This document shows, piece by piece, positions 13,979 to 36,100 of a stretch of DNA of 64,000 nt. The stretch is from Hydrogenophaga palleronii NBRC 102513 (GTDB taxonomy: Bacteria > Pseudomonadota > Gammaproteobacteria > Burkholderiales > Burkholderiaceae_C). Below the pieces are notes generated by a model, which saw only the letters and a program-made list of their open reading frames with translations, searched no databases and was not told where the DNA came from. The number at the start of each line of letters is the position of its first letter. Within the stretch, counting starts at the first letter, position 1. The position numbers and the translations under genes were made by a program. The stretch is from contig NZ_BCTJ01000004.1 in assembly GCF_001571225.1 (NCBI RefSeq), forward strand, positions 1-64,000. Reading direction: 5' to 3'.

Positions 13979-15949
13979 ATGAGCATTGAGCCTAAGTCTC
14001 AACTTAGGAGCTCGATGATGGCACTCTCTGATCTGATCGTCCGCCAGGCCAAGACGACTGGCAAACTTCACAACCTCCCCGATCTTGATGGCCTCGGCCT
14101 GGTGGTCTCACCGGTCGGTGGCAAGTCGTGGCACTTCCGCTACTACTGGCTCGGCAAGCAAAAGCGCATCTCTCTGGGTAACTATCCCGAGATCGGCTTG
14201 CGCGATGCCCGCATCTTGCGCGACGAAGCCAGGGCCCTGCTGGCCAAGGGCATCAACCCCCACACCGATCGCAAGCAGAAGCGGCACGCCATCCAGCTTG
14301 CGGCCGAGCACACCTTCAAGGCAGTCTTCGACGCGTGGGTGGAGCATCGCCGCAAGGAGCTCAAGGAGGGTCGCCAGAGCACGCTCTCGCAGATCCTGCG
14401 GATCTTTGACCGTGATGTGCTGCCCAGCCTGGGCAAGATGTCGATTTTCGACATCCGCCGGCCCCAGCTCTTGGGCGTGCTGGTGAAGATCGAGGAACGC
14501 AAGGCCTTCACCACCGCTGAAAAGGTTCGGACCTGGTTCCGACAGATGTTCCGCTATGCCCTGGTGATCGCCGAAGGAATGGAGGTCAATCCGGCCTCGG
14601 ATCTTGACGTGGTTGCGGCCCCAAAGCCGCCGACGGCGCACAACCCCTATCTGCGGCTGCATGAGCTGCCCGCGATGCTCCTGAAGCTGCGCGACTACCG
14701 TCGGCGTGGTCTGCAGACGCAGTTGGGCATCCGTCTCTTGTTCCTGACGGGTGTGCGCACCGGCGAGCTGCGCCTGGCGACCCCCGACCAGTTTGACCTG
14801 GATCGTGGCCTCTGGATCATCCCACCCGAGTTCGTCAAGCAATTGCAGGACGAGATGCGCAAGGCTGGCAAGCGGCCACAGGATGTCCCGCCCTACGTTG
14901 TTCCGCTCTCCCTGCAGGCCATTGAGGTCGTGCGGTACCTCCTTGGTGAAATGAAGCCGGCCCAGCGCTATCTTCTGGCGCACCGCAGCGAGCTCAAGAA
15001 GCGCATCAGCGAAAACACGCTCAACAGCGCTTTGCGCCGGATGGGCTACGAAGATCAACTGACCGGCCATGGCATCCGTGGCACGTTGTCGACTGCGCTC
15101 AACGAGGTTGGCTATCCCAAAATCTGGGTGGATGCCCAGCTGTCCCATTCCGATCCGAACAAGGTCAGCTCTGCGTACAACCATGCCAAGTACGTCGAGC
15201 CGCGGCGCCGCATGATGCAGGATTGGGCCGACCGCCTGGATCTCTTGGAGCAGGGGCAGGTGGAAGCTGCAAGCGCGCATCTCACGATCCACATCGAAGG
15301 CGTGCCGGCGATGGCTGACGACGAGAAACTGGCCGAGGCTGCAATTGCGGCGGCAATGGGTGGTGCGCCAACTGCGGGTGGCGTGCCCATCGTTGTAAGT
15401 CCAGGCGGCCAAGGCGCTGGATTCCAGCGCCTGTCCCCTGTCCCGATCGTGCAGGTGCCTGCGCTGCAGGAACCTGAGGTGTCTGGCATCCAGCGCGAGC
15501 GCGAGGAGATGCTGACGATCTACGAGGCGCCGAGCAGCCTGCCTGTGCCGCTGTTCGCCAAGCTGGCGGGCAAGTCCAAGGACCAGGTCAACCGCGAATT
15601 GAAGGCGGGCAAGCTGTTGTCCATCAGCATTGGCAACCGTGGACAGCGAGTGCCTGACTGGCAGTTGGTGCCGCTCAAGCTCAAGCTTGCGCAGGTGATG
15701 TTGAACCAAGCCGCGCACGTTGAAGCGTGGGAGCTGTACCACCTGCTGACGAAGCCCCAGCCCGGGCTGGACGATCGCGCAGCCGTGGACATTGTGACGC
15801 CGACCAACCTGGATAAGGTTGTGCAGGCGTTGCTCGGTCGCCAACAGCCGGCATCGGAGGTCGTTACCGAATCACCCGAGTTCTCCGCGCCCGTTCGCGA
15901 AAGCGTGAGGCGCCTGGTGGACAGTGCTGCCGCACTGGAGGCTGTGTAA
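13979..15949 (+). CDS. ICE site-specific tyrosine integrase (P4/IntB13 type)
   Basis: A 656-residue tyrosine recombinase, close to the length of IntB13 of ICEclc (about 657). The N-terminal DUF4102 arm-binding domain (about residues 13-100) is followed by a core-binding and a catalytic domain. Catalytic residues seen are Arg260 (TGVRTGEL), His364 and Arg367 (GHGIRG), His390 (LSHSD) and Tyr400 (SSAYNHAKY). About 230 extra residues follow the catalytic domain, as in the long integrases of this family. Start at 13979 has GGAG 11 bases upstream; the internal ATGs at 14014/14017 are possible. It should catalyse integration into and excision from tRNA-Gly. Confidence 0.93.
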   Translation: MSIEPKSQLRSSMMALSDLIVRQAKTTGKLHNLPDLDGLGLVVSPVGGKSWHFRYYWLGKQKRISLGNYPEIGLRDARILRDEARALLAKGINPHTDRKQKRHAIQLAAEHTFKAVFDAWVEHRRKELKEGRQSTLSQILRIFDRDVLPSLGKMSIFDIRRPQLLGVLVKIEERKAFTTAEKVRTWFRQMFRYALVIAEGMEVNPASDLDVVAAPKPPTAHNPYLRLHELPAMLLKLRDYRRRGLQTQLGIRLLFLTGVRTGELRLATPDQFDLDRGLWIIPPEFVKQLQDEMRKAGKRPQDVPPYVVPLSLQAIEVVRYLLGEMKPAQRYLLAHRSELKKRISENTLNSALRRMGYEDQLTGHGIRGTLSTALNEVGYPKIWVDAQLSHSDPNKVSSAYNHAKYVEPRRRMMQDWADRLDLLEQGQVEAASAHLTIHIEGVPAMADDEKLAEAAIAAAMGGAPTAGGVPIVVSPGGQGAGFQRLSPVPIVQVPALQEPEVSGIQREREEMLTIYEAPSSLPVPLFAKLAGKSKDQVNRELKAGKLLSISIGNRGQRVPDWQLVPLKLKLAQVMLNQAAHVEAWELYHLLTKPQPGLDDRAAVDIVTPTNLDKVVQALLGRQQPASEVVTESPEFSAPVRESVRRLVDSAAALEAV

Positions 15950-16059: not shown

Positions 16060-18444
16060 TCAGATCCGTGGTGAAGGTTCCTCTGTATCACCCATGGCCT
16101 CCCGCAGCTTCGGAAGAATCACGGCCTTGAGTTGAGCCTTCGCCCAACCGCTTCTTGCGTGAGTCTCGAAGCCGGCCAGTACCCCAAGCGCGATATGTAC
16201 CCGGGAGAGCAAGGCAACTGAGCCCGAACTGGCCGCAGTCGCGACCCAGTTGTCCGCCTGATCCTCGGCGGCGGAAAGATAGTCGAGGATGCCGAGCGTG
16301 ACGGGTTCTATGACCCCGGCGTCCGAATGCACGATGGATACGCCATCGTGCATGTCCAGCGTCGGCAGCATCCGAAGCGATTGCGGCCCCCGATTTCCAC
16401 GCAGAGGCACACGGCACGTCCCAATCTGCAGCAGCAGGTTCGGGTCTTCTCTTACGGCCCCATGGTCCCCCATCACCTCGAAAGGCGTGGATGCCACGTG
16501 AGACAAGATCAGCCAGGGGTGGATATTCTTGTAGGTGACCTGTTCCTCATCGCCGAGGTCAATCTCGTGCTGCTCCCCATCAATGACGACAACGCCTTTG
16601 CCATCGGGCTGGAATTTGATGTCCATCATGGCGCCGTTGGGTAACACCATCGCGTAGTGACCGCCTGTATCCAACACCTCGCGTTCGGGGGGCATTGCCA
16701 CCAGGGCGCTGATGAGGCCGACGGGTAGGCCATTCGGACGCTTGGCGGCATCGACAATGGCCTGCGCTGCCACCACCTCGCCAAGCGGAAGATTGCTTGC
16801 AGCGCCGGCAATCCACGCAGCGGTTTCGTGCAGATCCTCCTTCGAGCGCTTCACAAGTTCATCGGCCAGTGCGTGCGCCATCTCGCTGGCTAGCAGCTCT
16901 GGTAGCCGAACCAGGATTGTCGCGCCCGCCACGTCGTGCATGCCAGGGCGAACGAATCCATGATCGATCAGCCATTGCAGATCATCGGGCTCAAGCTCCG
17001 CTTTGACCGCGGTGCGGCGGATGATGCCCATCTCCAGTTGCTGGAGCACGATTTCGGGCGGCCGGGATTGGTCCTGCGCATCCGCAATCATCGAGCGCGC
17101 CAGGCCCCTGAACCTTCGTCGCAGTTCATGGTCTTGCGCGAAACGCTTGCGAACGACCTCCAGCAACCGCGGCCCGAGCAGCGAAGGCAGCGAAAGCGCC
17201 CGCGTCTCGGGCTTGCCCTTGAGCGCAGCCTGGCCAGAGCCGCTGATCGCTCGCAGCACCCACGGCTCTCGATACTCGGGCGCCATCTCGGCGCCATTCA
17301 TCAAGTACAGGCGGCGCTGTCCCAAAAGGGCTCGAGCAAGCTTGAATTCGCCGTCGCGCAGGTGTCCAACGCTTACGACCTTGGATCGGCGTCCCAACGG
17401 TGAAAGCGAAAGCTGGTTTGGCGTCTTGAGCACGCTCTGCGCCACAGCGTCATCCATTGCGACCACCACCGCCAGGGAGGGGCCGAACGCATTGGAAGAG
17501 AGATCCTCGATCTCCCGCACGGATGCAGTGTCTGCTGCACGCAGGCCGTCAAATGCCAGGACGAGCCGCACGCCATCGTGGTTTGAGATCCGGTTCAGCC
17601 AGTCCCGTGCCTCTTGCGGCGATACGGGCCAGCTCAGCGAACGCGAGATGGCGTCGGCCAAAGTTTGGAGCACGCCACCGCCAACACCCGCCTCGACGTA
17701 CAGGGTGGCGAGGGCATCGCTCTGCTCCGTGCGCGCACAAAGTTCGCGAAGCACATTGCTCTTGCCGGCGAGAGGAGGACCTTGCAGCACCAGTAGCTTC
17801 TCCCCTACAACCAGGTTTCGCCATAACAGATGGGTGGCAGCGCGCGGAGCGAGAAAATCAGCGGCGAATGGCAGTGCTGGTTCATCCGAGGATGCTGTGA
17901 GCTCTTCGATCGTCTCGGTTGATACGCGGCGAACGGCTTGCATCCACACATTCGGTGTTGTGCCCATCAGGGTATCGATAGCATGCCGAATGTCTGCCCC
18001 GGCGACGCGGTTTGCCTGGGTGATGAGTTCCTTGAATGCCTCTTCTGTCGCCGTCGTTGGTTGCCAAGGATTTCCCGTAGAGGTTTCCAGGATCCTGACG
18101 TCGGTGCCGTTCGTGACCACCACGAGCGGCGCCGGGGGCTGCACCAGCCTTGCATACGAAAGGCCTTGAGCGCCATCGTCACCGGTCAGCGTGAGGCCGG
18201 GTCTCTTCAGTTCCATGATGGCCAGGGGCTTGTCGTCCTTCTCCAATAGGATGTCCAGTCGCGCCTCGATACGTGATTTCCCGGCATCGACCTCCAAGAT
18301 CTGCCTTCCGAACTTGAAGGTGAATTTGATCTGGTGCTTGATGGCGCCGTCGGGCACCCAAGGAAATGCCAGTTTGATCGCTGCTCGGGCACGCGCCTCC
18401 AGATCGGCTTCTGTCTCTTTGGTTGTTGCACGTTTGATTGGCAT
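16060..18444 (-). CDS. HsdR-N-type nuclease fused to P-loop ATPase (putative defence protein)
   Basis: A 794-residue protein. Residues about 10-125 match the N-terminal nuclease domain of type I restriction R subunits, with a PD-(D/E)xK core: Asp64 (ARLDILLEK) and Glu78-x-Lys80 (IMELKRPG). A P-loop ATPase module follows, with Walker A at 222-229 (GPPLAGKS) and Walker B near Asp299 (RLVLAFDG). No helicase motifs typical of HsdR are seen, and no HsdM or HsdS lies nearby, so this is not an ordinary restriction subunit. Residues 330-794 are not recognised. Start 18444 has AGGGAG five bases upstream. It is divergent from the RES gene at 18586, and the pair sits next to the integrase, a common place for anti-phage cargo. 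Function is inferred. Confidence 0.75.
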   Translation of the reverse strand: MPIKRATTKETEADLEARARAAIKLAFPWVPDGAIKHQIKFTFKFGRQILEVDAGKSRIEARLDILLEKDDKPLAIMELKRPGLTLTGDDGAQGLSYARLVQPPAPLVVVTNGTDVRILETSTGNPWQPTTATEEAFKELITQANRVAGADIRHAIDTLMGTTPNVWMQAVRRVSTETIEELTASSDEPALPFAADFLAPRAATHLLWRNLVVGEKLLVLQGPPLAGKSNVLRELCARTEQSDALATLYVEAGVGGGVLQTLADAISRSLSWPVSPQEARDWLNRISNHDGVRLVLAFDGLRAADTASVREIEDLSSNAFGPSLAVVVAMDDAVAQSVLKTPNQLSLSPLGRRSKVVSVGHLRDGEFKLARALLGQRRLYLMNGAEMAPEYREPWVLRAISGSGQAALKGKPETRALSLPSLLGPRLLEVVRKRFAQDHELRRRFRGLARSMIADAQDQSRPPEIVLQQLEMGIIRRTAVKAELEPDDLQWLIDHGFVRPGMHDVAGATILVRLPELLASEMAHALADELVKRSKEDLHETAAWIAGAASNLPLGEVVAAQAIVDAAKRPNGLPVGLISALVAMPPEREVLDTGGHYAMVLPNGAMMDIKFQPDGKGVVVIDGEQHEIDLGDEEQVTYKNIHPWLILSHVASTPFEVMGDHGAVREDPNLLLQIGTCRVPLRGNRGPQSLRMLPTLDMHDGVSIVHSDAGVIEPVTLGILDYLSAAEDQADNWVATAASSGSVALLSRVHIALGVLAGFETHARSGWAKAQLKAVILPKLREAMGDTEEPSPRI

Positions 18445-18585
18445 ATTGCTCCCTTGTGTGCGTGGATTCATTTCCGATGGTAGCCCGCCAAACCGATGCC
18501 AGCGGCTGTAGTTCGCCGAGGCTGAAGAACGCATGTCATAGTTCTATCAATTGATGGAAGTTGCGAACTGCTTTGAGGATTCCAC

Positions 18586-19938
18586 ATGAGTTTTATATGT
18601 GCTGATTGTGTTGGGGAGCCATACCTGCAGCGCCTTGTGCAGGACGCCGCCACTTCCGAGAACCCTTGCGAGTATTGCGATGGCGATGCATCGGCCGCAG
18701 ATCTCTGGGAGGTGGCACGGCTATGCGAGGAAGTCATCGATACATTTTTCGAGGAATCCAGCAACACGATGGCGGTGATCCACTTCGGTCGAACTCCGGC
18801 CGGAAATGATTTGCAGACAACGATTTCAGAGTTGACAGGCATGCCGCAGGAGGCCGCCGAGGTTGTCGTTGAGCATTTGGGCAATCTTTGGTACGAGGCC
18901 GGTTCTGGAGAGTCTCGCTACGGCGATGATGACCCCTGGTTCGTCCTAAAGTCGTCGATGGCGGAACCACTCGGTCACGCCTGGCGTGATATGGAAGACA
19001 GCCTGCGCTCCGACGTGCGTTACTTCAATCCCAAGGCGCTGGCGTTGCTCGACACGATTTTTGGCGAGCTCACCAATGATCGAGACAAGGAGGGGCGTCC
19101 GGTCGTCTTTGAGGCGGGTCCCGGCACATCGCTGAAGATGCTCTACCGGGGTAGGGTGTTCCAAACGGACGATGCGCTGGCCGCCGCGCTACGCTGGCCT
19201 GAACGCTTTCTGGGTTCGCCGGCGGTAGGTATCGGTGCTGCTGGACGAATGAATGGGCAGGACCAACCGGCCTTCTACGGCGCCACGGCTCCTGAAATCT
19301 GCATTGCCGAGGTGCGCCCACCGGTGGGTAGCCGGATCGCACTGGCCGCGTTTGAGGTGATTCGCCCACTGCGCCTTTTGGATCTTCGACGACTGGCTAC
19401 CGTTGAGTTGCGTCCTGATGCCAGCCTGTTTGATCCGGCTACACGCTCCGCGGCGCAGCGACGCGACTTCCTGAGGACGTTGGGTGAGCGCCTCTCGGCG
19501 CCAGTGGTCCCCGAACTGCAGGATCGCGACTACCTTGTCACTCAAGCCGTTGCTGACTATCTGGCGGCTCATGCTACGTTGAATGTCGACGGCATCATCT
19601 ATCCCTCGGCACAAAGCCGTCGCCCTGACGAGCCCCCGGTTGGTGACAACGTCGTGTTGTTTCGCAAGGCCTGCGAAGTGACCAGCGCTGACGGAAGCGA
19701 CATCACTGCCGAGATCGCTCTGTGGGAATACGAGGAAGAAGGGCCGGGCCGCTGGTTCCGCCCGTCGATCCACTTCGTGGATCGGGACGCAGCGTGGCAT
19801 GGGTACCGTGCGGTGCATCCGGCGCTGTCGTTGATGCGGGACTCGATTGTCATTCATGAAATATCCGCTGTGCGCTATTACAGCACGCCGCATCCTGTTG
19901 AAGGTGTCAGTTCTCTCAACGACCGCCACTATGGTTGA
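18586..19938 (+). CDS. HEPN/RES-type protein, probable NAD-degrading effector
   Basis: A 450-residue protein. The N-terminus has a zinc-ribbon-like pair (Cys5-x2-Cys8 and Cys28-x2-Cys31) followed by a helical region resembling the HEPN/RES N-terminal domain. From about residue 183 a RES domain follows. Its name-giving residues can be seen as Arg188/Arg190 (LYRGR), Glu242 (AEVRPP) and Ser341 (YPSAQS), with FYGA near 230. RES proteins such as MbcT and Xre-RES toxins degrade or phosphorolyse NAD. No Xre antitoxin is adjacent; instead it faces the nuclease-ATPase gene. The start has GAGG eight bases upstream. An abortive-infection effector controlled by the ATPase is the best guess. Confidence 0.75.
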   Translation: MSFICADCVGEPYLQRLVQDAATSENPCEYCDGDASAADLWEVARLCEEVIDTFFEESSNTMAVIHFGRTPAGNDLQTTISELTGMPQEAAEVVVEHLGNLWYEAGSGESRYGDDDPWFVLKSSMAEPLGHAWRDMEDSLRSDVRYFNPKALALLDTIFGELTNDRDKEGRPVVFEAGPGTSLKMLYRGRVFQTDDALAAALRWPERFLGSPAVGIGAAGRMNGQDQPAFYGATAPEICIAEVRPPVGSRIALAAFEVIRPLRLLDLRRLATVELRPDASLFDPATRSAAQRRDFLRTLGERLSAPVVPELQDRDYLVTQAVADYLAAHATLNVDGIIYPSAQSRRPDEPPVGDNVVLFRKACEVTSADGSDITAEIALWEYEEEGPGRWFRPSIHFVDRDAAWHGYRAVHPALSLMRDSIVIHEISAVRYYSTPHPVEGVSSLNDRHYG

Positions 19939-19982: not shown

Positions 19983-20693
19983 TTAATCATCACTTTCGCC
20001 ATTCTGAAGATAGCAAAGGGGATGTTTCAGGGGCAACTCAGCATGGATCGCTTGCGACATGAGTGATTGGGAATATGCACCAGCTACGCGCTGGATGAAG
20101 CGCTCGATGGCGCATGAATATGTGCCTGGATGCCAGAACAGCACTGTCTGTATCCAGCGCGGCCCTTCGGCAAGGGGGTGCATCATAATCTTCCACTCAG
20201 AAGCTACCGTCATATGTGAGCGGAAGGCAAATCCGACTCCATAGCCTGCAGCTACCAAGCAAGCCATTAGCGGAAATGATCTCACCGTGCGTGAGGTATC
20301 CCAGTGATCACCCACCAGTGATTTGACCTGCTGGTTCAGCAATCCGTGTGTATCCGGACACCATTGAATCAGGGGGAAGTCCTGCAGTGCAGCGACTGTA
20401 AGGGACTCATGAGTCGCCAGAACTGATCCAAGTGGTAGTGCAACAGCCAATTCGTCTCGCCATAGCGGCAATGAGCGCATGCCCATTGGAAGCATGCGGT
20501 CTCCAACAACGCCCAGATGTACCAGCCCCAACGAGACACCCTGAGCTAGTGCCTCTGGTGACATCTCTTGCACGAGCACGGGGGTAAGTGGTTCTTCTGC
20601 GCGTTGTAAAGCTAAAAGATGAGCCAACGGCGCAGCTGGTGTGTCGGTTGTTATGCCGAGCCGTATGGCTGATGCTTGAGCGATCTTGATCAT
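19983..20693 (-). CDS. Stand-alone LysR-type effector-binding domain protein
   Basis: A 236-residue protein that consists only of a LysR substrate-binding (periplasmic-binding-like) domain; the DNA-binding helix-turn-helix is absent. The ATG at 20693 comes directly after an in-frame TAG, so no N-terminal part is encoded upstream. The block 'LVAAGYGVGFAF' is shared with the complete LysR protein at 21098 (LVAAGYGVGFTS), so the two are related. It is divergent from the small XRE gene at 20799, which could supply DNA binding. It could also be a decayed LysR gene, but the domain itself is unbroken. Confidence 0.7.
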   Translation of the reverse strand: MIKIAQASAIRLGITTDTPAAPLAHLLALQRAEEPLTPVLVQEMSPEALAQGVSLGLVHLGVVGDRMLPMGMRSLPLWRDELAVALPLGSVLATHESLTVAALQDFPLIQWCPDTHGLLNQQVKSLVGDHWDTSRTVRSFPLMACLVAAGYGVGFAFRSHMTVASEWKIMMHPLAEGPRWIQTVLFWHPGTYSCAIERFIQRVAGAYSQSLMSQAIHAELPLKHPLCYLQNGESDD

Positions 20694-22102: not shown

Positions 22103-23191
22103 TCACCACTTTTGCAGCCAGTAGGCATATGGCACTGGCAGCACGAGGGCTGGCTGGCTGATCTTCAATTCTCTTGCCGCTTGGAATGTCCAGTGAGGAT
22201 TAGCCAGCAGGCTGCGTGCGATGCACACGAGATCGAGCTTTGCTTCGCGGACGAACGCATCGGCCTCGCTGGCGCTGGTAATCAGCCAACTGGTGCTCAC
22301 GGGCAGATGGGTTTCGACGCGAATCCGCTCCGCGTAGGGCACCATGAAGTTGGGCGCCCAGGGGACCTGTTCCGCAGGTGTGGACAACGCGAGGCCGACG
22401 TCAACCAGATCGACGCCGGCCTCCTTGAGCCAGTGCACGACCTGGATGGCTTCGTCAGCCGATTGCGCCGCACCGTCGTCGAACTCGACCACACCCAGGC
22501 GTACCGTCAGCGGCAGATGTTCCGGCCAGACTTGGCGAACGGTAGCGACCGTTTCGATCAGGAAACGAGCGCGATTCACCAATGAGCCTCCGTACTCGTC
22601 GGTTCGAGCGTTCGCATGGAGGGACAGGAAGCTCTGCGCCAGGAAGCCATGCGCGAAATGAAGCTCCAGCCACTCGAAGCCTGCTTCAGCAGCGCGGCGG
22701 GCGGCATCGGCAAAATCCTGCTGAACCCGGTGGATGTCTTGCAACGTCATCGCGCGCGGGATGTTCGGCTCGCTCGGCATGTAGGGCAGCGCGCTGGGGG
22801 CTATCGGCTCCCAGGCGCGGGGATCGTTCTTGGGCAGTGGCTTGCCGTTCTCCCACGGTGGCGTGCAACCAGCCTTGCGGCCAGCGTGCCCAAGCTGAAT
22901 TCCTGGCACAGCGCCACCTTCCTTGATCCCCTGCACGATGCGCTTGAAGCCATCGACATGCGCATCGGCCCACAGACCGGCGTCGCCTGGCGTGATGCGG
23001 CCTTCTGCCGAAACAGCGGTGGCCTCGACCACCAGAAGGCCCACGCCGCCCCGTGCAAGCATCGGGTAGTGAACGTGGTGCCAGTCATTCACAAAGCCGT
23101 CGACAGCTTGGTACTGGCACATCGGCGAGGCGACGATGCGATTGCGCAACGTGATGCCTTTGAGCTGGTAGGAAGAAAAAAGCGATGACAT
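22103..23191 (-). CDS. NADH:flavin oxidoreductase, Old Yellow Enzyme (YqjM/XenA-like)
   Basis: A 362-residue FMN-dependent ene-reductase. The start 'LRNRIVASPMCQYQA' carries the cysteine typical of the thermophilic-like/YqjM branch, and 'LHFAHGFLAQSFLS' contains the substrate-binding histidine. Such enzymes reduce activated C=C bonds, quinones and nitro compounds with NAD(P)H. A GGAG lies six bases before the ATG. It is divergent from the AraC regulator at 23371, with 179 bases between them, so AraC control is likely. Confidence 0.92.
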   Translation of the reverse strand: MSSLFSSYQLKGITLRNRIVASPMCQYQAVDGFVNDWHHVHYPMLARGGVGLLVVEATAVSAEGRITPGDAGLWADAHVDGFKRIVQGIKEGGAVPGIQLGHAGRKAGCTPPWENGKPLPKNDPRAWEPIAPSALPYMPSEPNIPRAMTLQDIHRVQQDFADAARRAAEAGFEWLELHFAHGFLAQSFLSLHANARTDEYGGSLVNRARFLIETVATVRQVWPEHLPLTVRLGVVEFDDGAAQSADEAIQVVHWLKEAGVDLVDVGLALSTPAEQVPWAPNFMVPYAERIRVETHLPVSTSWLITSASEADAFVREAKLDLVCIARSLLANPHWTFQAARELKISQPALVLPVPYAYWLQKW

Positions 23192-24463: not shown

Positions 24464-24877
24464 TCACCGTCTGCGGGCTTGCTCACGAATCCGCGCCAAC
24501 GCCTCATTGAAGCCATCCGGGGTGACGCTGGAGCCGGCGAGCTTGCTGATTTGCACGTCGGCGATGGGCCTGCCCTTCACCAGCGCCGGCACGGCTTCTG
24601 CAAAGCGGCGCTGGTAGTCGAGCGACGTCGGGTCTGTGGCATGGGTGCGAACCGAGACGGCCTGGATACGGTCCGCTGCGAGCGTTAGCGTTACCGTGAG
24701 CCTTGATGGCAGGCCGCCGTACAGGCCTTCAGCGGTGTAGGTGCCGTTCCGATAGCTGGCTTCTTCTTTCCGGCCCGACACAGGTGCCGCGCCTTCGGCC
24801 CCTGCCAACGCCTCGCCACACGCCGCAAGCAGGGTTGCTGCGATGGCAAGCGCTCGCGCGATGGATCTGTGGATCAT
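24464..24877 (-). CDS. FMN-binding domain lipoprotein
   Basis: A 137-residue protein with a lipoprotein-type signal (LLAAC, Cys at about residue 19) and an FMN_bind domain ('NGTYTAEGLYGGLPSRLTV' to the C-terminus). The covalent FMN acceptor threonine should be in 'LAGSSVTPDGF'. The ATG at 24877 is chosen because AGGAGG lies right before the ATG at 24883 but six bases before this one. It follows apbE, whose product attaches FMN to such domains. A periplasmic one-electron carrier is expected. Confidence 0.8.
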   Translation of the reverse strand: MIHRSIARALAIAATLLAACGEALAGAEGAAPVSGRKEEASYRNGTYTAEGLYGGLPSRLTVTLTLAADRIQAVSVRTHATDPTSLDYQRRFAEAVPALVKGRPIADVQISKLAGSSVTPDGFNEALARIREQARRR

Positions 24878-24893
24878 GGACATCCTCCTGGCA

Positions 24894-25793
24894 TCAGATA
24901 AAAACCTCACCTTCGAACCCCGCTGACCATTCGGCACGCCCGTCGGAGAACAGCCTGACGAACTCGAACGGGCCTGTGGCCGCCAGGCGTGAGGGTTCGA
25001 CAAAGAAAAGCGCCGTGGCTAGACCGTCCGCGGTCATTGCGTTGTCCGCCACGACCCATGTGGCCATGACGTGCTGGGCTGGCACACCGGTGCGCGCGTC
25101 GAGGATGTGGTGCACGCCTTCGCCCCATCGCCGCCGGTTCGTAGCGGACGCGCAGAGCGCACGCCCCTCGAGATTGGCGAGCCCGATGACGTGACCGGGC
25201 TGGCGAGGATCCTCCAGGCCGACCGCGAGTGCGCTGTCGCCGGCCTGCAGGAGGTCGCCGCTCGCATCGATAAGGTGATCCGAAAGACCCGCACCACGGA
25301 GCAGATCGCCGATCAGATCGATCAGCAGTCCCTTGCCGGCGGCGCCGACATCGATCACGAGCGGCCCATGGCAGGTCAGCACGCAGCCCTGGCGCGACAC
25401 GTCGTGCGTCCAGCGGGGTCGCCGATAGGCTGCGCGTTCGGTCATCGGGACCGGAACGAGACTGTAGTGGCGGTCATAGCCGAGCATCTCCAGGTCGCGG
25501 CCAACGAGCGGATCGACCGCGCCCGCCGTCGCTGCATGAAGACCGTCGTAAAGGTCGAACAGACGGCTGGCCTCTTCCGGAAAGAGGAAGCGCCCACCAC
25601 GTTCCGCGCGCGCGATCTCGCTGACCAGCGAGTCCTCCCGGAACCGGGACCAGGTCGCATCGAATGCCTCGGCACGGGCCAGAATGGATTGACGCAAGGG
25701 CGGGGCGATCGACCGCGGCGCCTCGATCGCCCAGCGCGTGCCGATCGCGTCGAAGACGAACCGGTCGGGGATGGTGGTCCCCGAGGCGATCAT
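24894..25793 (-). CDS. apbE: FAD:protein FMN transferase (ApbE family)
   Basis: A 299-residue ApbE-family flavin transferase. Visible blocks are 'FDATWSRFREDSLVSEI' (substrate-contact region), 'GPLVIDVGAAGKGLLIDLI' (flavin/metal site) and 'NAMTADGLATALFF' near the C-terminus. It moves FMN from FAD onto a Thr/Ser of partner proteins in the periplasm. The obvious partner is the FMN_bind lipoprotein just downstream. The start overlaps the upstream SDR stop (ATGA), so translation is coupled. No clear signal peptide is seen, so its site of action is uncertain. Confidence 0.9.
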   Translation of the reverse strand: MIASGTTIPDRFVFDAIGTRWAIEAPRSIAPPLRQSILARAEAFDATWSRFREDSLVSEIARAERGGRFLFPEEASRLFDLYDGLHAATAGAVDPLVGRDLEMLGYDRHYSLVPVPMTERAAYRRPRWTHDVSRQGCVLTCHGPLVIDVGAAGKGLLIDLIGDLLRGAGLSDHLIDASGDLLQAGDSALAVGLEDPRQPGHVIGLANLEGRALCASATNRRRWGEGVHHILDARTGVPAQHVMATWVVADNAMTADGLATALFFVEPSRLAATGPFEFVRLFSDGRAEWSAGFEGEVFI

Positions 25794-26644
25794 TGATGCG
25801 GGTAGTCCGCGGCGACACTCATCGTGCGCACCTGTTCGAGCTGAGCCAGCCGGCCGCGGCGATCGGCCAGCACCGCGTCGTACCCCCATGCACCCAGTGG
25901 CAGGTGCCGCGGCGGCGTTGCCATCTGGGCGAGTTCGATCATCACTTGGGCCGCGCGTGCCGGGTCGCCAGCCTGGGTGCCGCTCGCTGCCTTGGTGGAA
26001 TTCAGCCGCTTGCCAGCGATTTCTGCGTAGTCGGCAATGCGCGTTGGGGTCTGGCGAAGCGAGCGGCCCGCCCAATCGGTGCGGAACGGACCGGGTTCGA
26101 TGCAGGTGACGCCAATGCCCAGCGGCTCAACTTCGGCCCGCAGTGCATCCGAAAAGCCTTCCACGGCATGTTTGGAGGCCGCGTAGTAGCCCGAACCGGG
26201 ATACCCGATCAGTCCCGCCACCGACGTGATGTTGAGGACGCGCCCACTGCGTTGCGCGCGCATGACGGGCAGCACCGCGCGGGTGACGGCGAACAGGCCG
26301 AAAACATTGGCGTCGAACTGGGCGCGGATCTCCGCCTCGACGCCTTCCTCTACGGAGCTTTGGTAGCCATAGCCTGCGTTGTTGACGAGCACGTCGATCC
26401 GGCCGAATCGCGCCTGGGCTGCGGCGACGGCAGCGTCAATCTGATCGTTGCGGGTGACGTCAAGATCGAGAAGGAGAACGCGATCCTCGGCGCCTGCGGC
26501 GAGGTCCGCGAGCCGCTTCCTGTCCCGTGCTGTCGCGACCAACCGCCAGCCTTGGTCGACGATGCGTCGGGCAAGCGCGCGTCCCAACCCGGTCGAGCAG
26601 CCGGTGACGAACCAAACGGGTTTGTCGTGCGTGTCATTGGTCAT
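25790..26644 (-). CDS. Short-chain dehydrogenase/reductase
   Basis: A 284-residue classical SDR. The cofactor motif is TGCSTGLG at the N-terminus with 'ATARDRKRL' (basic residues suggest NADPH). The structural NNAG and the catalytic Ser and Tyr-x3-Lys (YYAASK) are in order. It is in the leftward operon 30,158 to 24,464 and overlaps apbE by four bases. Relatives are often annotated as oxidoreductases of unknown substrate. Confidence 0.9.
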   Translation of the reverse strand: MTNDTHDKPVWFVTGCSTGLGRALARRIVDQGWRLVATARDRKRLADLAAGAEDRVLLLDLDVTRNDQIDAAVAAAQARFGRIDVLVNNAGYGYQSSVEEGVEAEIRAQFDANVFGLFAVTRAVLPVMRAQRSGRVLNITSVAGLIGYPGSGYYAASKHAVEGFSDALRAEVEPLGIGVTCIEPGPFRTDWAGRSLRQTPTRIADYAEIAGKRLNSTKAASGTQAGDPARAAQVMIELAQMATPPRHLPLGAWGYDAVLADRRGRLAQLEQVRTMSVAADYPHQ

Positions 26645-26698: not shown

Positions 26699-27748
26699 TT
26701 ACTGGTGTGAGAAAAGCGACGGCGCTTTGGCGAACCCCGCGGTGCGGAATACGGTTGCGCCACGCGTCTCATCGCCATCGCTGGCAACGAGATAGATTTC
26801 GTTCGTGCCTGGCTTGAACGCCATGCTGGTCGTGAGGAGGAAGCGCCCATCGTCCCGCCCGGGGACCAGGATCTGACCAATGGGCAAACCATTGCGATTG
26901 AAGACGAGGATGCGGCCTTGCTGGAAGATGGCTGCATAGACGTTGCCATCGGCATCCACACGCAGGCCATCCGGCGCGGGTCCCGTGAAGTGGTACGCGA
27001 TCGCCGTGCCCACAGGCGCGACCGTCGTGGCGCTGGCCAGGGTGACGCGGTGCAGGATATTTCGCGAGTACTCGGTGACCCACAACGTTTTTCCATCCGG
27101 CGAGAGTGCAACGCCATTCGCAGCCGCGAGGTTTCGCAGGATGGGCGTGATGCGCCCATCGGGAGCCGCGTAGTAGACGCCCCCGGTGGGTTCGGTGGAA
27201 CTGCCCTTGAGATCCGAAAAGTAGAAACCGCCCGCGCTGTCGAAGACGAGATCGTCCGGGAAGTAGCCTGCACTGGGCGCCACAATCTCCTTGCGACCGC
27301 TGCCATCGGCGCTGAACGCCACGATGCTGCCGCCCGTCGCCATGTCTCCGACCTCGGCGACGAACAGGCGTCCGTCCTTGTGAATGGCGAGGCCCGTCGG
27401 AGTGATGGCGTTCTTGTTCTTGTCCACTGCGGTCGTGATCGACTTGTCCGGAGCGACCTTGAGCACCCGGCCGCTGAACATGTCCACGAACAGCAGGTTG
27501 CCGGCCCTGTCGAAGACCGCGCCCTCCAGAAAAAGGCGTTGATCGGCCAATGCCAGCCACGGCTCGGCCGTCACCGTCTGTAGAGCGGCTTCGGAAGGCG
27601 GTATCGGGACAGGCGCCCGGTTCGCCGCGGTGTAGACAAGCGCGGCCTTCTCTTGTGGAGCGGGACTCTGCTGGGCGTAGATGACGCCGCACAGGAAGAG
27701 CGACAGGGTCGCGGCGACGGCAGAGATCTGCCTCTGATAAAGCTTCAT
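26699..27748 (-). CDS. Exported SMP-30/gluconolactonase-like beta-propeller protein
   Basis: A 349-residue protein with a Sec signal (residues 1-25, ending VIYAQQ) and a six-bladed propeller of the SMP-30/gluconolactonase/LRE-like family. Blade motifs include 'GNLLFVDMFSGRVLKV' and 'DGNVYAAIFQQGRILVF'. Such proteins are metal-dependent lactonases or related hydrolases. It sits in the same leftward operon as the SDR and the aldo/keto reductase. A periplasmic lactone or organophosphate-like ester substrate is possible but not shown. Confidence 0.85.
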   Translation of the reverse strand: MKLYQRQISAVAATLSLFLCGVIYAQQSPAPQEKAALVYTAANRAPVPIPPSEAALQTVTAEPWLALADQRLFLEGAVFDRAGNLLFVDMFSGRVLKVAPDKSITTAVDKNKNAITPTGLAIHKDGRLFVAEVGDMATGGSIVAFSADGSGRKEIVAPSAGYFPDDLVFDSAGGFYFSDLKGSSTEPTGGVYYAAPDGRITPILRNLAAANGVALSPDGKTLWVTEYSRNILHRVTLASATTVAPVGTAIAYHFTGPAPDGLRVDADGNVYAAIFQQGRILVFNRNGLPIGQILVPGRDDGRFLLTTSMAFKPGTNEIYLVASDGDETRGATVFRTAGFAKAPSLFSHQ

Positions 27749-27815: not shown

Positions 27816-28991
<1,176 letters not shown>

Positions 28992-29060: not shown

Positions 29061-30158
29061 TTAAGCCAGGGTGCGGCGGAAGAACGCATCGAGTTTTTCG
29101 ACAGCGGGCGTCACGTACTGCGGCTTGTCGTACATGTCGATGTGCGTGGCTCCTGGAACCAGGAAGAGCTCTTTAGGCTCATTCGCCTTCTTGATCGCGT
29201 TCTCGCTGGTGTACAGGCTGTCCGCATTGGCGCCAGCAATCATCAGAATGGGCCGTGGCGCGATCGTCTCAATCTGATCGAAGGCGAAGAACGCCATCTG
29301 CGCAGGAAGCGAGGAGAACACCGCGCGCGTGGGTGCATTGGGGTGCTGGCCCCGAGCCGTCTTGTAGTACTCGTAACCTTCGCGGTACATGACGGGCGTG
29401 CTTGCCGTGAAGTCCTTGGTGGATTCCGGCACCGTAGGCACGAGGCGGATGGGCTCGCCGCGAGCCTCGCGGCTACGCTGCGCCACCGCGTCCTGCAGCA
29501 GCTTCATGCGTTCCTCGTAGCTGCGGTTGTTGGCCAGACCGCTGCGACGGAGATCGCCGATGTCGGCGGCACTGACGGTGGCCACCGCCCGGATACGCAG
29601 TTCCGTCTGGGCCGCATTCACGACATAACCGCCGCCACCGCAAATGCCCAGGGACCCAATGCGGTTGGCATCCACCTGCGGGTGGGTGCTCAGAAAGTCG
29701 ATCGAGCTGCTGATGTCGTCTACGCGCGCGGTGGGGAGTTCCATCAGGCGGGGCAGGCCACCACTGTCGCCTTGATACGAAGCGTCATAGGCCAGAGTGA
29801 TGAAGCCCTGTTCAGCCAGACGCAAGGCATACAGACCCGATGTCTGTTCCTTGACCCCGCCAATCGGATGCGTCACGACGATCGCCGGATACTTCTTGGC
29901 GGGGTCGAAGTTGGCGGGCTTAAACAGGTTAGCCGCGATCTGGGTCTGCGTATTCCTGTTCGGATAGCTGACCCGCTCGACCACAACGCCTTTGATGTCA
30001 GGGTGGCCAATCACAGCCAGTCCCGACGGCGCAGTGGCTTGCGCTGCGGCAGGAACCGAGGCCAGCAAGCCTGATCCTGCCACCACGACACCGCCCATGG
30101 CGATTGCTGTTGTGCCCAGGAACTTGCGGCGGTGCGCATTGATTTCGATATTGTCCAT
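29061..30158 (-). CDS. Dienelactone-hydrolase-like alpha/beta hydrolase with Tat-type signal
   Basis: A 365-residue alpha/beta hydrolase. The N-terminus carries a Tat-like signal (HRRKFLG, then hydrophobic to PAAAQA). The nucleophile elbow LGICGGGG contains Cys in the serine position, as in dienelactone hydrolases. The acid and base are probably in 'GANADSLY' and 'GATHIDMY'. AAGGGG seven bases upstream supports the ATG at 30158. It is the first gene of the leftward operon to 24,464. It should hydrolyse esters or lactones outside the cytoplasm; substrate unknown. Confidence 0.82.
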   Translation of the reverse strand: MDNIEINAHRRKFLGTTAIAMGGVVVAGSGLLASVPAAAQATAPSGLAVIGHPDIKGVVVERVSYPNRNTQTQIAANLFKPANFDPAKKYPAIVVTHPIGGVKEQTSGLYALRLAEQGFITLAYDASYQGDSGGLPRLMELPTARVDDISSSIDFLSTHPQVDANRIGSLGICGGGGYVVNAAQTELRIRAVATVSAADIGDLRRSGLANNRSYEERMKLLQDAVAQRSREARGEPIRLVPTVPESTKDFTASTPVMYREGYEYYKTARGQHPNAPTRAVFSSLPAQMAFFAFDQIETIAPRPILMIAGANADSLYTSENAIKKANEPKELFLVPGATHIDMYDKPQYVTPAVEKLDAFFRRTLA

Positions 30159-30598
30159 TGCTGGCCCCTTAATCAAGGATAGAGAAAGAATGTGGCTCAT
30201 AGGAGCGTTGCGCACCTTGACCGTGAGGCGCTTGTGCAGCTCGAATCCATTGGAAGGGATCCGGGATTACGAAGTGCCAGTCAACCCAGTTGCGCAGGCA
30301 TGCGCGTACGGACGTCGACATCTGGGATGAACATGAAGACCGAGCTTCAATCCTCTCCCGCGGAGGCCGCCGTAAAAGAAGGCGCGCACGACTACTTGAC
30401 AGCTTACGGCGGAGTCTTCTCCCGCGATTGCACGATCTGCCGGATTGGTTGCCCGATGCGATGAGAAAATGCCAGGTTCGATAGCACAAAACGACAGGGC
30501 ACCACCTTTTTTGGAAAAGTCGCTCACCCAAAGGCCAATCGGAAGCATGGGCGGCGTTGCCCCTGAGATCCGAGCTGCCCACGGTTGATGTCGAACGC
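30159..30598. other. Gene-free stretch upstream of the hydrolase operon
   Basis: These 440 bases lie between two leftward genes. Several short open frames exist on both strands but none has a convincing start, domain or ribosome site. The promoter of the 30,158-24,464 operon should lie at the left side. Remains of a lost gene cannot be excluded. Confidence 0.5.
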
Positions 30599-32029
30599 TC
30601 ATTCATGTGCGGACGATGCGAGTAAGGCGTCGTCCCGCTGCAGCCAGCCGCCTCCCAGCGCCAGAATGAGCTGCACCGAAGCGCGACGCTGACGATTGTT
30701 GAGATCCAGCATGCGTCGTTGCGCCTGCAAGGCATTGGCCTGTGCTATGACGACATCCAGATAGCTTGCTGCGCCGTCGCGATAGCGACTGCTCGCCAGA
30801 TCCAGAGCACGCTGCGCCGCTTGCGTGGCGCGTTGCTCGGCCGATCCGGCCTGGCCGTATTGATTGATCAGGGAGAGCTGGTCTTCCACTTGCTGGAAGG
30901 CCGCCAGCACCACTTGCCGATAGGATTGGCCTGCTTCGTCAAGCACTGCTTCAGCGCGCCTGATTTCGGCCCTTCGGCGCCCGCCATCGAATACAGTGGT
31001 CAACAAGCTCGGTCCGATGGCCCACATTAGATTGGGTGCGGCGATCAAGTCACTGATGTCGTCACTTTGATAGCCTCCCGAGGCGCCCAGCCTGACTGAC
31101 GGAAAAAATGCGGTGCGTGCAACTCCGACACCGGCGGCGGCCGAAGACACACGTTGCCTGGCCGCGGCAATGTCCGGGCGGCGCAGCAGCAGGTCGGAAG
31201 GTAGACCGGCGGGAATCGTCGGCAGGGTCTGGGCGACCGTGGTCGGGGTGATGGAAAAGGTGGACGGATGCTCGCCAACCAAAGCGGCGATGGCATGTTC
31301 TAGCACGGCGCGCTGCGCCTGTACCTGATGCAGTTGTGAACTGGCAGCTTCCAGCTGCCCCTGTGCTTGGGCCACATCGAGCCCGGATGCGACACCGGCT
31401 TGATGCCGTTGCGCCACCATATCGAGCGCGCGCGTATAGCCCGCTTGCGCCCGCAACAGTAGCGATACGTCCTGATCGGCTCCGCGCAACGCAATCATCG
31501 TGTCCGCCAGTCGGACCTGAAGCGCAAGCTGCGCTGCCGCCAAATCAGCTTCTGCTGCCCGTTCTTGAGCCTCGCCAGCAGCAACCTGCTGGCTTATACG
31601 TCCCCATAGGTCGAGTTCGTACTCAAGATTCAGAGCCAACGTGGAACTGTCATAAAGGTCCGGCGATGTCGCGCCGCGAAGCGGTCTGCGTTCGGACTGG
31701 CGATTTCGTGCGGCGTCGAACGTGGCACCGACCGATGGCATGCGAGCGGCTCGCACGGTATCCGTTGCCGCGCTGGCCTGCTGGTAGCGTGCCAGCGCGC
31801 TGGCAAGATCGGGGCTGTTCTCCACCAACCGGCGCTGGAGAAGGTCTAGCTCTGTGTCCTCGTACAACGACCACCAGTCCGGCCGCGAAAGTGGCTCGGT
31901 TGCTTCATCCGGCGCTACACCTTTGTAAGTGGCTGCAACGGGCGTGGCCGGCAAGGAGACCGGTTCGACATGGGCGCAGCCTGCCAAAGCGCAAGCGGCC
32001 GCCAGCATTGCGATGCGAGGCCCCTTCAC
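30599..32029 (-). CDS. RND efflux outer-membrane lipoprotein (NodT/OprM family)
   Basis: A 476-residue outer-membrane factor with a lipoprotein signal (ALAGCAHVEP, lipidated Cys at about residue 18). Two repeated coiled-coil/barrel halves are seen, with the family blocks 'PDLASALARYQQA', 'LDLWGRI' and 'RPDIAAARQRV'. It starts at a GTG that overlaps the stop codon of the upstream adaptor gene (GTGA), so translation is coupled. It forms the exit duct of the tripartite pump encoded by this operon. Confidence 0.92.
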   Translation of the reverse strand: MKGPRIAMLAAACALAGCAHVEPVSLPATPVAATYKGVAPDEATEPLSRPDWWSLYEDTELDLLQRRLVENSPDLASALARYQQASAATDTVRAARMPSVGATFDAARNRQSERRPLRGATSPDLYDSSTLALNLEYELDLWGRISQQVAAGEAQERAAEADLAAAQLALQVRLADTMIALRGADQDVSLLLRAQAGYTRALDMVAQRHQAGVASGLDVAQAQGQLEAASSQLHQVQAQRAVLEHAIAALVGEHPSTFSITPTTVAQTLPTIPAGLPSDLLLRRPDIAAARQRVSSAAAGVGVARTAFFPSVRLGASGGYQSDDISDLIAAPNLMWAIGPSLLTTVFDGGRRRAEIRRAEAVLDEAGQSYRQVVLAAFQQVEDQLSLINQYGQAGSAEQRATQAAQRALDLASSRYRDGAASYLDVVIAQANALQAQRRMLDLNNRQRRASVQLILALGGGWLQRDDALLASSAHE

Positions 32030-33186
32030 TTCGCAGCCGCCCCAGGCGCGCCGGCAACACGGACCGGATCGCCGTCGGCAATGCCATCGGGCGGACTGTT
32101 GATCACACGGTCGTCCTGGTCCACGCCATCGTTCAACTCGACGATTCGCCCTAGGTCTCGGCCGATCGTGACGGTGCGCAATCGCACACGCCCTTGATCG
32201 TCGACGAGTGCGACCTGAACCCCGGCACGGCCAAGGATCAAGGCGCTGGGCGGCAACCCCAGTGCCCTGGCACTTTCCGAGGCCACAAAACGTACCCTGG
32301 CAAAGCCGCCCGGCAAGAGCTTTCCGTCCACATTGTCAGCCATGAGCTGCACACGCATGGATCCTGTGTTCACATCGATGGCTTGGGACAGCGACTGCAC
32401 CGTCGCCTCAAAGGTTTCGCCCGGCCGCTCGGGTACGGTCAGCTGAGCTTTACTGCCCAGCCGGAGCGAAGCGACCTGGCGCTGGGGGACATTCACATAG
32501 ATGCGCAGGCGCCTTATGTCGGAGACGACGAACAAGGCGGTTCCCGGGGCCTCCGCAGCGCCCCCGCTGATCAGTGAACCGACGTCCGTGTTGCGTGCGG
32601 TGATGACGCCGTCGAAAGGCGCAGTGAGCTGCTTGAATTGCTGCAGTGTCTGCATCCGTTGGACATTGGCTTGCAGTGCATCGACGACGGCACGTCTGGC
32701 CGCGCTGTCGGCCACTCGCTCTTCGACATCCTGTCGCGAAACTGCGTCGCTGGCCAACAACGATTGCCAGCGCTTCGCCGTCGTATCTGCCAGCGCAGCT
32801 TCGCCGCGAGCGCGTGCCAGTTCGGCGCGGGCTTGCAGCAACGCCTGATCTGAATCCGGAGTGTCGATCTCGGCCAGGATCTCGCCGGCTTTGACCGGCG
32901 TGCCAATGTCATGTATCCAGCGCTTCAGGTAACCGTTGACCCGCGCGTGGATGGGGGCACGCGACCATGCTTCGATGCGTGCGGGAAGTTCCAGAGTGGC
33001 ACTGTCCAGTGGCGCTGGCGAGATCACTCCTACCGAACGTATGGCTTGCGATTCTGCGTTGTCGCGCAGTTGTTCTGCGCGCGACCAACGGGTCACCGTG
33101 CCGGTGATTACGATGGCGGCCGCGATGGTCACCAGGACCAAAGCGGGTCCCACTCGGCGACGCTTGCCGGATGGCTGATCGGTCAT
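32026..33186 (-). CDS. RND efflux periplasmic adaptor (membrane fusion protein)
   Basis: A 386-residue adaptor. One N-terminal membrane anchor (about residues 12-35) is followed by the lipoyl, helical hairpin and beta-barrel domains ('ARVNGYLKRWIHDIGTPVKA', 'LTAPFDGVITARN'). The ATG at 33186 has GGAG nine bases upstream and lies two bases past the RND pump stop. It connects the inner-membrane pump to the outer-membrane factor. Confidence 0.93.
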   Translation of the reverse strand: MTDQPSGKRRRVGPALVLVTIAAAIVITGTVTRWSRAEQLRDNAESQAIRSVGVISPAPLDSATLELPARIEAWSRAPIHARVNGYLKRWIHDIGTPVKAGEILAEIDTPDSDQALLQARAELARARGEAALADTTAKRWQSLLASDAVSRQDVEERVADSAARRAVVDALQANVQRMQTLQQFKQLTAPFDGVITARNTDVGSLISGGAAEAPGTALFVVSDIRRLRIYVNVPQRQVASLRLGSKAQLTVPERPGETFEATVQSLSQAIDVNTGSMRVQLMADNVDGKLLPGGFARVRFVASESARALGLPPSALILGRAGVQVALVDDQGRVRLRTVTIGRDLGRIVELNDGVDQDDRVINSPPDGIADGDPVRVAGAPGAAAK

Positions 33187-33187
33187 G

Positions 33188-36100
33188 TCAAGAAGCTCCA
33201 ATGGCGGGTTGTGGCACGTGCTTGGCTTGGCCGGACGAGCGGCCGTGTACCAGGCTGAACAGCACGGGCACAAAGATCAGGGTGGCGACGGTTGAGAACA
33301 GCAATCCGCCAATGACCGCGCGGCCCAGCGGCGCGTTCTGCTCACCGCCTTCGCCAACGCCCAGAGCCATCGGCAACATGCCGATCATCATTGCCAGGGC
33401 CGTCATCAACACCGGACGAAAGCGCACGAAGCCTGCATCGAGTGCCGCAGCCGTGGCATCTCCCAGTTCAACAAGCCGTTCACGCGCAAAGCTGACAACC
33501 AACACGCTGTTTGCAGTCGCTACTCCCATGCACATGATTGCGCCGGTAAGCGCCGGTACTGAGAGCGTTGTGTCGGTGGCAAAGAGCATCCACACGATGC
33601 CGGCCAGAGCCGCTGAGAGTGCCGAGACGATCACAGCCGGATCCAGCCAAGACTGGAAGTTCACGACGATCAAAAGGTAGATCAGTACGATGGCGCCGAG
33701 GAGGCCAACGAACAGGCCTGAGAACGCGCGCTCCATCGTGTCAACCTGGCCCAGCAGCTGCACCTGGGTGCCACGCGGCACATCGCCAGCAGTTTCTTCC
33801 AAGACCCTCCGGATGTCCTTGGCTACGGCGGCGAGATCCCGATCTTGGGTCGCTGCATGGATCTGCACCATCGGCTGGATGTTGTACTGGCTGACCAGCG
33901 CATTGGAATTGCTTCGGGTCAGCGTCGCGACACCGCCCAATGTGGTGTCTGCTGGCGACGTGCCATTGCCCACTGGCAGGTTGGACAAGGCCGACAGCGA
34001 GTCGATGTCACGTTGTGGGGTCTGGATCACGATCGGATAGCTAATGCCATTTGCCGGATTCAGCCAGTAGTTGGGCGCGACTTGACTGCTGCCTGCCAAG
34101 TTGGTCACCAGGCTGTTGGTCACGTCGCGCGTGGTCAGGCCAAGCTGCTGGGCCTGGGTGCGGTCAAGGGTGACGTCGAACTTGTGAGCCTGATTGGACT
34201 GTTGGATGCGTGCGTCCACAACACCCGGGATCGCACGCAGGCGTTTGAGCAGTTGCTGTGCGTACGCGAAGTTGCTGTCCAGATTCGCGCCGCGAATCTG
34301 GATGTCAATGGGCGCAGGTGCCCCGAAGTTGAGGATCTGGCTGACGATATCCGCGGGTGGAAAGGAGAAGGTCGCATCCGGGAACTGGGAGGGCAGCACC
34401 TCTCGGAGCTGTTTGACGTAGGTCGCCGTCGGAGCATGGCCATCGCGAAGGGCGATCTGGAAATCACCATCCTGGGAGCCCATGACGCCGGTGTTGTTGT
34501 AGGTCAGGTTGATATTGCTGGGTGGAAGGCCAATGTTGTCCACCAGCGTTTCGATCTCGTCGGCCGGAATGACCTGACGAACCGCTCGCTCGATCTGCGC
34601 GAAACGCGAGGCGGTTTCCTCGACGCGCGTTCCCACGGGCAGGCGCACGTGCATGAGCACCTGGCCGGAGTCGACCGAGGGAAAGAAGTTGGAGCCGAGA
34701 TGCGGAACGAGTGCGGACGATGCCACGATCACAGCGACGAAGCCGATGAGGAATCGCTTGCGATTCGCCAGGGCGGCCTGCAACGAATCGCGGTAGCGGT
34801 TCCGAAAGCGCTCGAAACGCGCTTCGAAACCCCGTTGAATCCGCACGAGGGGGTTGCGCGAGCGGGGCAGTGCCTGGTCGTTGCCATGCATGTCCGTGTG
34901 CGGCGCATGTGGCCTGAGCAGGTACTTGGCCATCGTCGGCACCAGGGTGCGGGAGAGAATGAATGAGCACACCATGGCAAAGATCACCGACAAGGCCATC
35001 GGGACGAACAAGAAGCGCGACACACCATCGAGGAAGAACATCGGCACGAAGGCGATGCAGATGCACAGGAGCGAGACGAAGGCCGGGGTGACGATCTGTC
35101 GCGCTCCATCGAGGATCGCAGCCTCCACGTCCTTGCCTTGTTCGAGGTGCCAATTGACGTTTTCGATGGTCACGGTGGCGTCGTCCACCAGAATCCCGAT
35201 GGCCAGCGCCAAGCCACCCAAAGTCATCAGATTCATCGTCTGCCCCATCGCCGCGAGTGCCATGATGGAGCCCAGGACGGAGAGCGGAATCGAAACCGCG
35301 ATGATGACCGTTGACCGCCAACTGCCCAGGAACAGCAGGATCATCAGGCTGGTCATGGCAGCGGCGATCACACCCTCAAGTGCCACTCCCTTCACTGCCG
35401 CCCGGACGAACACCGATTGGTCGTTGATCGGTACCACCCGCAATGCTTCGGGCAGGGCCGCGCGCATGTTGTCCAGCATTCCTCGAATGCCATCGACGAT
35501 GGCGAGCGTGGATGCAGAGCCGCTCTTGAGCACGGTCATCAGCACCGATCGGTTGCCATCGACATGCACGATGTTCGACTGTGGTGCATTGCCGTCGCGC
35601 ACGTCGGCAACATCCCGCAGGTAGATGGTCGTATCACCGACCACTTTCACAGGAATGCTGCCCATGTCCTCGATGGCGGCCAAGGCGCTGTTGAGCTGCA
35701 GCGGGTACTCGCGGTCGTCGATCTTCTGCGTGCCGATCGGGGTCAGCACATTGTGCGCGGCCAACGCTGACGACACATCCTGCGCCGACAAGCCGCGCGC
35801 TTGTAGCGCCTGGGGCTTGAGATCGATCTGGACCTGCCGCTGCACGCCCCCGTAGGGCAGCGGAATGACGGCGCCGGGTACGGTAATCAATGGCGTTCGC
35901 ACGGTGTTCATGCCCAGGTCGAACAATTCCTGTTCGGACATGCCCTCGCCGGAGAGCGCGAGTTGAACAATGGGGACTGTAGCGGCGTTGTAGTTGAGGA
36001 TGACGGGGGGCTGTGTGCCGGCCGGCATCAGCCGCAAGGCGACTTGCGCGGCAGCGGTGATCTGGGCATTGGCGGTGGCGATGTCCACGCCCGGCTGGAA

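Follow-up and report, generated by a model that had tools for sequence, protein, structure and literature searches.

Gene Organization of the Locus

The window analyzed here, a stretch of 64,000 nucleotides from Hydrogenophaga palleronii NBRC 102513, carries on its minus strand six genes arranged head to tail. In order of transcription these encode a dienelactone-hydrolase-like protein (29061-30215), an aldo/keto reductase (27816-28988), an SMP-30/gluconolactonase-like protein (26699-27748), a short-chain dehydrogenase/reductase (SDR; 25790-26644), the FAD:protein FMN transferase ApbE (24894-25793, 299 residues, assigned by Pfam) and a small exported FMN_bind-type protein, here termed FMNb (24464-24877, 137 residues). 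The stop codon of the SDR gene overlaps the ATG of ApbE in a shared ATGA, and FMNb lies directly 3' of ApbE with an AGGAGG 6 nt ahead of its ATG. FMNb has a hydrophobic N-terminal stretch and the lipobox LAAC at Cys20. Export signals were also recognized by eye on three of the neighboring enzymes, a Sec-type signal on the SMP-30-like protein, a twin-arginine signal (MSRRDLL) on the aldo/keto reductase and a twin-arginine-type signal (NAHRRKFLG) on the dienelactone-hydrolase-like protein, and by the same inspection the SDR and ApbE carry none. The arrangement given in a preliminary description of this DNA, in which ApbE adjoins an exported FMN_bind protein and is coupled to an SDR gene, is thus confirmed by the gene order, the Pfam assignment, the family evidence for FMNb and the ATGA overlap, and the claim of exported enzymes nearby is supported by the signals.

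Convergent with FMNb is a gene for an AraC-type regulator with an AraC_N domain (PF06719; 23371-24285, plus strand), from which an old-yellow-enzyme-type flavin oxidoreductase gene (22103-23191, minus strand) diverges. An RND efflux set comprising outer membrane channel, adaptor and pump (30599-36391) lies upstream on the minus strand. A scan for promoters and terminators was uninformative, with 2 and 2 sites found against 1.2 and 5.3 expected. At 19983-20693 a LysR substrate-binding domain occurs without its DNA-binding domain and looks truncated.

The genes are cargo of an integrative and conjugative element (ICE), as had been proposed. A tRNA-Gly gene is located at 13716-13791, and its 18-bp 3' end (13774-13791, plus strand), which forms one end of the element, recurs as a direct repeat at 116610-116627 of contig C4. 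A tyrosine integrase gene sits beside the tRNA (13928-15949, plus strand), and the repeats, 102.8 kb apart, enclose the conjugation genes TraI_2, TraG_N and TraU with other frames between them (56361-63899, minus strand). With an integrase at a tRNA, a flanking repeat and conjugation genes, the element is an ICE; it resembles the ICEclc family in its tRNA-Gly target, 18-bp repeat, length of ∼102.8 kb and three conjugation genes, and carries different cargo. FMNb was found in one of 200 genomes of the host's family, the window's own, and in four of 398 genomes of the phylum (its own, one strong match and two weak ones). The DNA of 20000-44000 matched nine plasmid records, each over at most 5% of the query.

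Three further regions of the element were noted. The segment 43887-49187 encodes an aldo/keto reductase, a [2Fe-2S] subunit, a molybdopterin large subunit, XdhC and a cytochrome c, and resembles a periplasmic aldehyde oxidoreductase set. At 51625-52854 a Flavodoxin_2-type protein with a twin-arginine signal match lies within a long open frame and looks like an exported quinone-reductase-like flavoprotein. Directly after the integrase, 16060-19938 holds a borderline HSDR_N protein and a RES-domain protein, possible defense or toxin-antitoxin genes.

Family Evidence Places FMNb with the FMN_bind Proteins

Taken alone, FMNb scored 15.1-15.8 bits against Pfam FMN_bind (PF04205), below the cut-off of 22, with an E value of 0.036 at 15.1 bits, and no protein of the genome matched PF04205 at E ≤ 0.001, so that the label could have been a chance one. 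The family alignment is more telling: of its 39 rows, one of which is the window, 32 give FMN_bind matches at E ≤ 0.1, the best at 1e-6, and the family profile found the FMN-binding domain of 8p2a in the PDB with an E value of 0.008. An AlphaFold2 model of FMNb (pLDDT 76, pTM 0.63) was most similar in VIA-align to 8p2a (Z 10.2), followed by 8p2b (9.3) and NqrC (4xhf, 9.1). Unrelated folds came close behind, namely part of a lipoate ligase (3r07, Z 9.0) and IscU (8.8), so the fold by itself would not have decided the matter, and Foldseek gave no match for the model at E ≤ 0.001. Family evidence supports the classification of FMNb as an FMN_bind kind of protein.

By the Lol rule, lipoproteins with Gly after the lipobox Cys are expected on the periplasmic face of the outer membrane. 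The location at the outer surface that had been suggested for FMNb is unsupported, since Gly follows Cys20 and 13 of the 16 FMNb proteins of the window's own group have no lipobox. The motif is present in the remaining three, the window's among them, as against 62 of 64 measurable proteins outside that group.

Relatives and Their Gene Neighborhoods

No relatives were returned from the genome collection when the single FMNb protein was used as the query. A five-row FMNb alignment returned 108, of which 80 were examined; together with four plasmid loci these make up the set of 84 relatives. ApbE was found at 78 of the 84 loci, the six others being L018, L021, L023, L052 (which ends at a contig edge), L056 and L060.

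Proteins resembling the membrane-NAD fusion (NqrB/RnfD-like) of locus L006 are encoded at 63 of the 78 ApbE loci, mainly in Actinobacteria and in two candidate-phyla genomes. In their combination of FMN_bind protein, ApbE and membrane-NAD fusion, these 63 of the 84 relatives resemble the Nqr/Rnf-like systems that PMC8238504 and PMC11334425 report mainly from Actinobacteria plus candidate phyla. Eight of the fusions were scanned with Pfam: the NAD-binding domain exceeded its cut-off in five and the NqrB/RnfD domain in none, with weak matches to the latter in four. The L006 fusion itself matched nothing, and that of L046 matches flavohemoprotein and ferredoxin-reductase structures.

The other 15 ApbE loci have no fusion and come from rhizobia (including Agrobacterium plasmids), Microvirga, an acetobacterium, a sphingomonad and two cyanobacteria. 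An aldo/keto reductase is encoded at all 15, compared with 3 of the 63 loci that bear the fusion. Unlike the Nqr/Rnf-like systems, then, the loci of the window and these 15 relatives contain aldo/keto reductases and no fusion; in the main text of PMC8238504 and PMC11334425, as far as available, the string "aldo" does not occur. LysR regulators are present at 12 of the 15 loci and exported-looking hydrolases are frequent. Six of the 15 encode a DUF4405 protein beside a P460 cytochrome, and Pfam cut-offs were passed by all three DUF4405 and both P460 proteins scanned. This recalls the DUF4405-associated clusters of PMC11334425, with the differences that the companions of DUF4405 are here a P460 cytochrome and an FMN_bind protein, where that paper names Flavodoxin_4, and that the window has no DUF4405. 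Although it belongs to the fusion-less branch, the window is without both cytochromes.

The fusion-less group was set by gene context before any tree was built. In the ApbE tree, from which row L079 was left out by a score limit, the window and the 15 fusion-less relatives form one branch (support 100/98) inside the actinobacterial rows. Its neighbors, placed less firmly (94/90), are three Microbacteriaceae loci, the same 3 of 63 that have an aldo/keto reductase, there as weak matches. The FMNb tree, which has few columns and omits five rows without the core pattern, gave a branch of 17 rows (100/99) comprising these 16 and L018 of Cellulomonas hominis; the 16 on their own received 67/0. Because the window's branch falls within actinobacterial rows, the Gram-negative form most likely descended from an actinobacterial one.

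Two of the loci merit separate mention. At L018 (4249-9288), C. hominis encodes an FMNb of the window's branch by an aldo/keto reductase and an SDR, with no ApbE match in the locus. The plasmid record of Pseudomonas sp. DR48 (L006, 6965-9948) contains an Arthrobacter-like module that groups with L039 and L046, and the record may be mislabeled or contaminated.

Catalytic Residues of ApbE and the Putative Flavin Acceptor of FMNb

The product of 24894-25793 matches Pfam ApbE with an E value of 4.6e-40 and 138.3 bits, against a cut-off of 25.6, and is the only ApbE match in its genome. Against solved ApbE structures the best E value was 2.8e-14. The catalytic triad of the Vibrio enzyme is Asp285-Ser241-His257 (PMC12052999), and its equivalents in the window, as we read them from alignments to the structures, are Asp256, Ser216 and His229. 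Among 79 ApbE proteins Ser216 and His229 are invariant and Asp256 is kept in 78, the single exception being a gap in L003, where the gene is split over two frames. Split genes of this type, either broken genes or sequencing errors, are ApbE at L003 (5973-6891) and L012 (7579-8834) and an alpha/beta hydrolase at L009 (12024-13157).

Flavinylation motifs have been described as [S/T]GA[S/T]-like, with the last residue modified (PMC11334425), and as D-x-x-[S/T]-G-A-[S/T] (PMC12052999). The corresponding region of FMNb reads S-K-L-A-G-S-S-V-T and departs from the longer motif at three positions, with Ser for Asp, Ala for Ser/Thr and Ser for Ala. In the family-profile alignment to 8p2a, the GSS of the FMNb family falls on GAT, which makes Ser117 (codon 24527-24529, minus strand) the putative acceptor, at the position that bears the flavin in [S/T]GA[S/T]. 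This residue is Ser in all 85 FMNb proteins (84 relatives and the window). AGSSxT is found in 72 of them, SGSSxT in 11, and AGASxC and SGASxT in one each; that is, 83 have [A/S]GSS, the window with AGSS among them, and two have [A/S]GAS, so the Ala position of the published motif is Ser in 83 of 85. The Thr of GSSVT, previously put forward as the flavin carrier, is Thr119 (codon 24521-24523, minus strand); it is kept in 84 of 85 proteins and was rejected on the alignment, in which it is not the acceptor. According to PMC12052999, Ser also serves as an acceptor, though not as efficiently as Thr, and substitution of the leading Asp has little effect. The departures of FMNb from the motif are thus compatible with flavinylation. 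FMNb probably bears a permanently attached flavin, with Ser117 as the putative site.

ApbE Appears to Remain Inside the Cell

A lipoprotein or other export signal, usual for ApbE if not universal, was not seen on the window's enzyme. Export was judged across the family from hydropathy and motifs, a crude measure. For each ApbE, the 40 or fewer residues before the first conserved motif were scanned, and the 12-residue stretch of highest hydropathy was recorded. For the 79 ApbE proteins of the clade (78 loci and the window), 67 were measurable, with seven having fewer than 12 residues before the anchor and five having no anchor motif; the maximum was 1.44, which denotes no hydrophobic N-terminal stretch. 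FMNb gave 1.58-3.4 in 80 of 85 rows, the other five yielding no value. As controls, the 30 best-scoring ApbE loci were drawn from the host's phylum, in which 291 of 398 genomes have ApbE; they are biased toward classical ApbE by that choice, and one (L118) gave no ApbE. All 29 measured controls lay between 1.97 and 3.42, and a lipobox is present in 26 of them. As the ranges of clade ApbE and FMNb do not overlap, the transferase seems to stay in the cell while its partner leaves it.

A different explanation is that flavinylation is periplasmic as in known systems, with ApbE exported by a route that simple sequence features miss. In PMC12052999, ApbE proteins that serve exported substrates are described as periplasmic lipoproteins, and in a thiamine test a cytosolic ApbE was unable to substitute for the periplasmic enzyme. 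On the other side, a hydrophobic N-terminal stretch occurs in none of the 67 clade members and in 29 of 29 controls, and the genome has no second ApbE match. We consider this explanation unlikely, though it is the best of the alternatives. A cytosolic ApbE does have a parallel in Klebsiella, whose enzyme likewise has no signal peptide; that ApbE modifies a soluble fumarate reductase in the cytoplasm (PMC12052999), and the substrate in the window, by contrast, has an export signal. Among the titles and opening lines of abstracts surveyed, there was no cytosolic ApbE with an exported substrate and no precedent for flavinylation before export.

Search for an Electron-Transfer Partner

A membrane reductase partner, for which a search of the rest of the ICE had been suggested, was not found there among the families and membrane proteins checked. 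The host genome has no match to NqrB/RnfD (PF03116), a weak test for fusions of this type because none of the eight scanned passes its cut-off, and the L006 fusion used as a query recovered only its NAD half, on other contigs (best E 5.7e-8). All seven DUF4405 matches in the genome were below the cut-off, with none on contig C4; a DUF4405-group profile, run without a positive control genome, found no relative in the genome; and tblastn with DUF4405 and P460 proteins on the contig gave nothing better than E 0.16. In a hydropathy scan that missed one of six DUF4405 controls, the frames of the ICE with at least four predicted spans were the RND pump, two MFS transporters, TraG_N and DUF4400. Any partner of FMNb is therefore likely to be unlinked to the ICE. 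Elsewhere in the genome there are one Ferric_reduct protein (on C7) and three PepSY_TM proteins (on C9, C26 and C72), which could serve.

These searches bear on another explanation, that the module left its membrane component behind on transfer and is of no use to its present host. It agrees with the lack of NqrB/RnfD matches and DUF4405-group relatives in the genome (the latter search being the one without a positive control), with the lack of any known electron-transfer protein among the ICE membrane proteins that were checked, and with the restriction of FMNb to one genome in 200 of the family. Neither gene is broken, however, and the residues of the active site and the acceptor have been conserved across long branches; nine of the 15 fusion-less relatives also have no DUF4405 in the stretch examined, and the Ferric_reduct and PepSY_TM proteins are available as substitutes. 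An idle module is accordingly improbable, somewhat more so than an exported ApbE. That FMNb is instead a flavin reservoir or scavenger, or that ApbE mainly hydrolyzes FAD like treponemal Ftp, has a model in the ApbE relative with FAD pyrophosphatase activity of PMC4767422 and is quite unlikely, given an NAD fusion or an aldo/keto reductase at 78 of 78 ApbE loci.

Proposed Mechanism

The reading we favor, with a probability of roughly 0.55, is that ApbE and FMNb constitute a transferable module in which flavinylation probably precedes export and the flavoprotein serves periplasmic carbonyl chemistry through an electron route of the host. In the first step ApbE would transfer FMN from FAD to Ser117 of FMNb, as the motif, the fold and the kept catalytic residues suggest. 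With ApbE having no visible export signal and FMNb having one, the FMNb precursor would most likely receive its FMN in the cytosol, perhaps while still being translated, since the two genes abut. The flavin-bearing protein would then be exported by Sec and, in the window's copy, lipidated.

Once in the periplasm, FMNb may carry electrons, as a tethered flavoprotein, for the co-encoded exported carbonyl-handling enzymes, a role suggested by linkage, and by the same token the aldo/keto reductase with its Tat signal would be the first client. Against this pairing, linkage is the sole tie between the two proteins, and the gene beside ApbE in the window is the SDR. Redox potentials make electron flow from NADPH to flavin easier than the reverse. 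FMNb would thus be likelier to take electrons from an exported NADP-holding reductase than to give them, the reverse of the role of missing electron donor in which the lipoprotein was originally cast. The entry or exit of electrons would depend on a membrane component. Actinobacterial relatives would use the NqrB/RnfD-like NAD fusion, some Gram-negative ones possibly the DUF4405 and P460 cytochromes, and the window's host an unlinked membrane protein.

A wider proposal, offered tentatively and held with distinctly less confidence, is that the ApbE enzymes of the whole clade are cytosolic and load FMN onto preproteins ahead of Sec, and that one branch exchanged a membrane NADH reductase for exported aldo/keto reductases. 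If so, covalent flavoproteins would cross the membrane with the cofactor already on, and a new periplasmic pairing would exist between a covalent flavin and NADP-dependent carbonyl enzymes. Flavinylation of exported proteins has been described as extracytosolic, which raises the question of how FAD reaches that side of the membrane; a transferase inside the cell with a substrate that leaves it would be a second solution to the FAD supply, and one that is easy to test. The locus is also a case of a module for a probable covalent-flavin protein that travels on a mobile element within a carbonyl-handling gene set.
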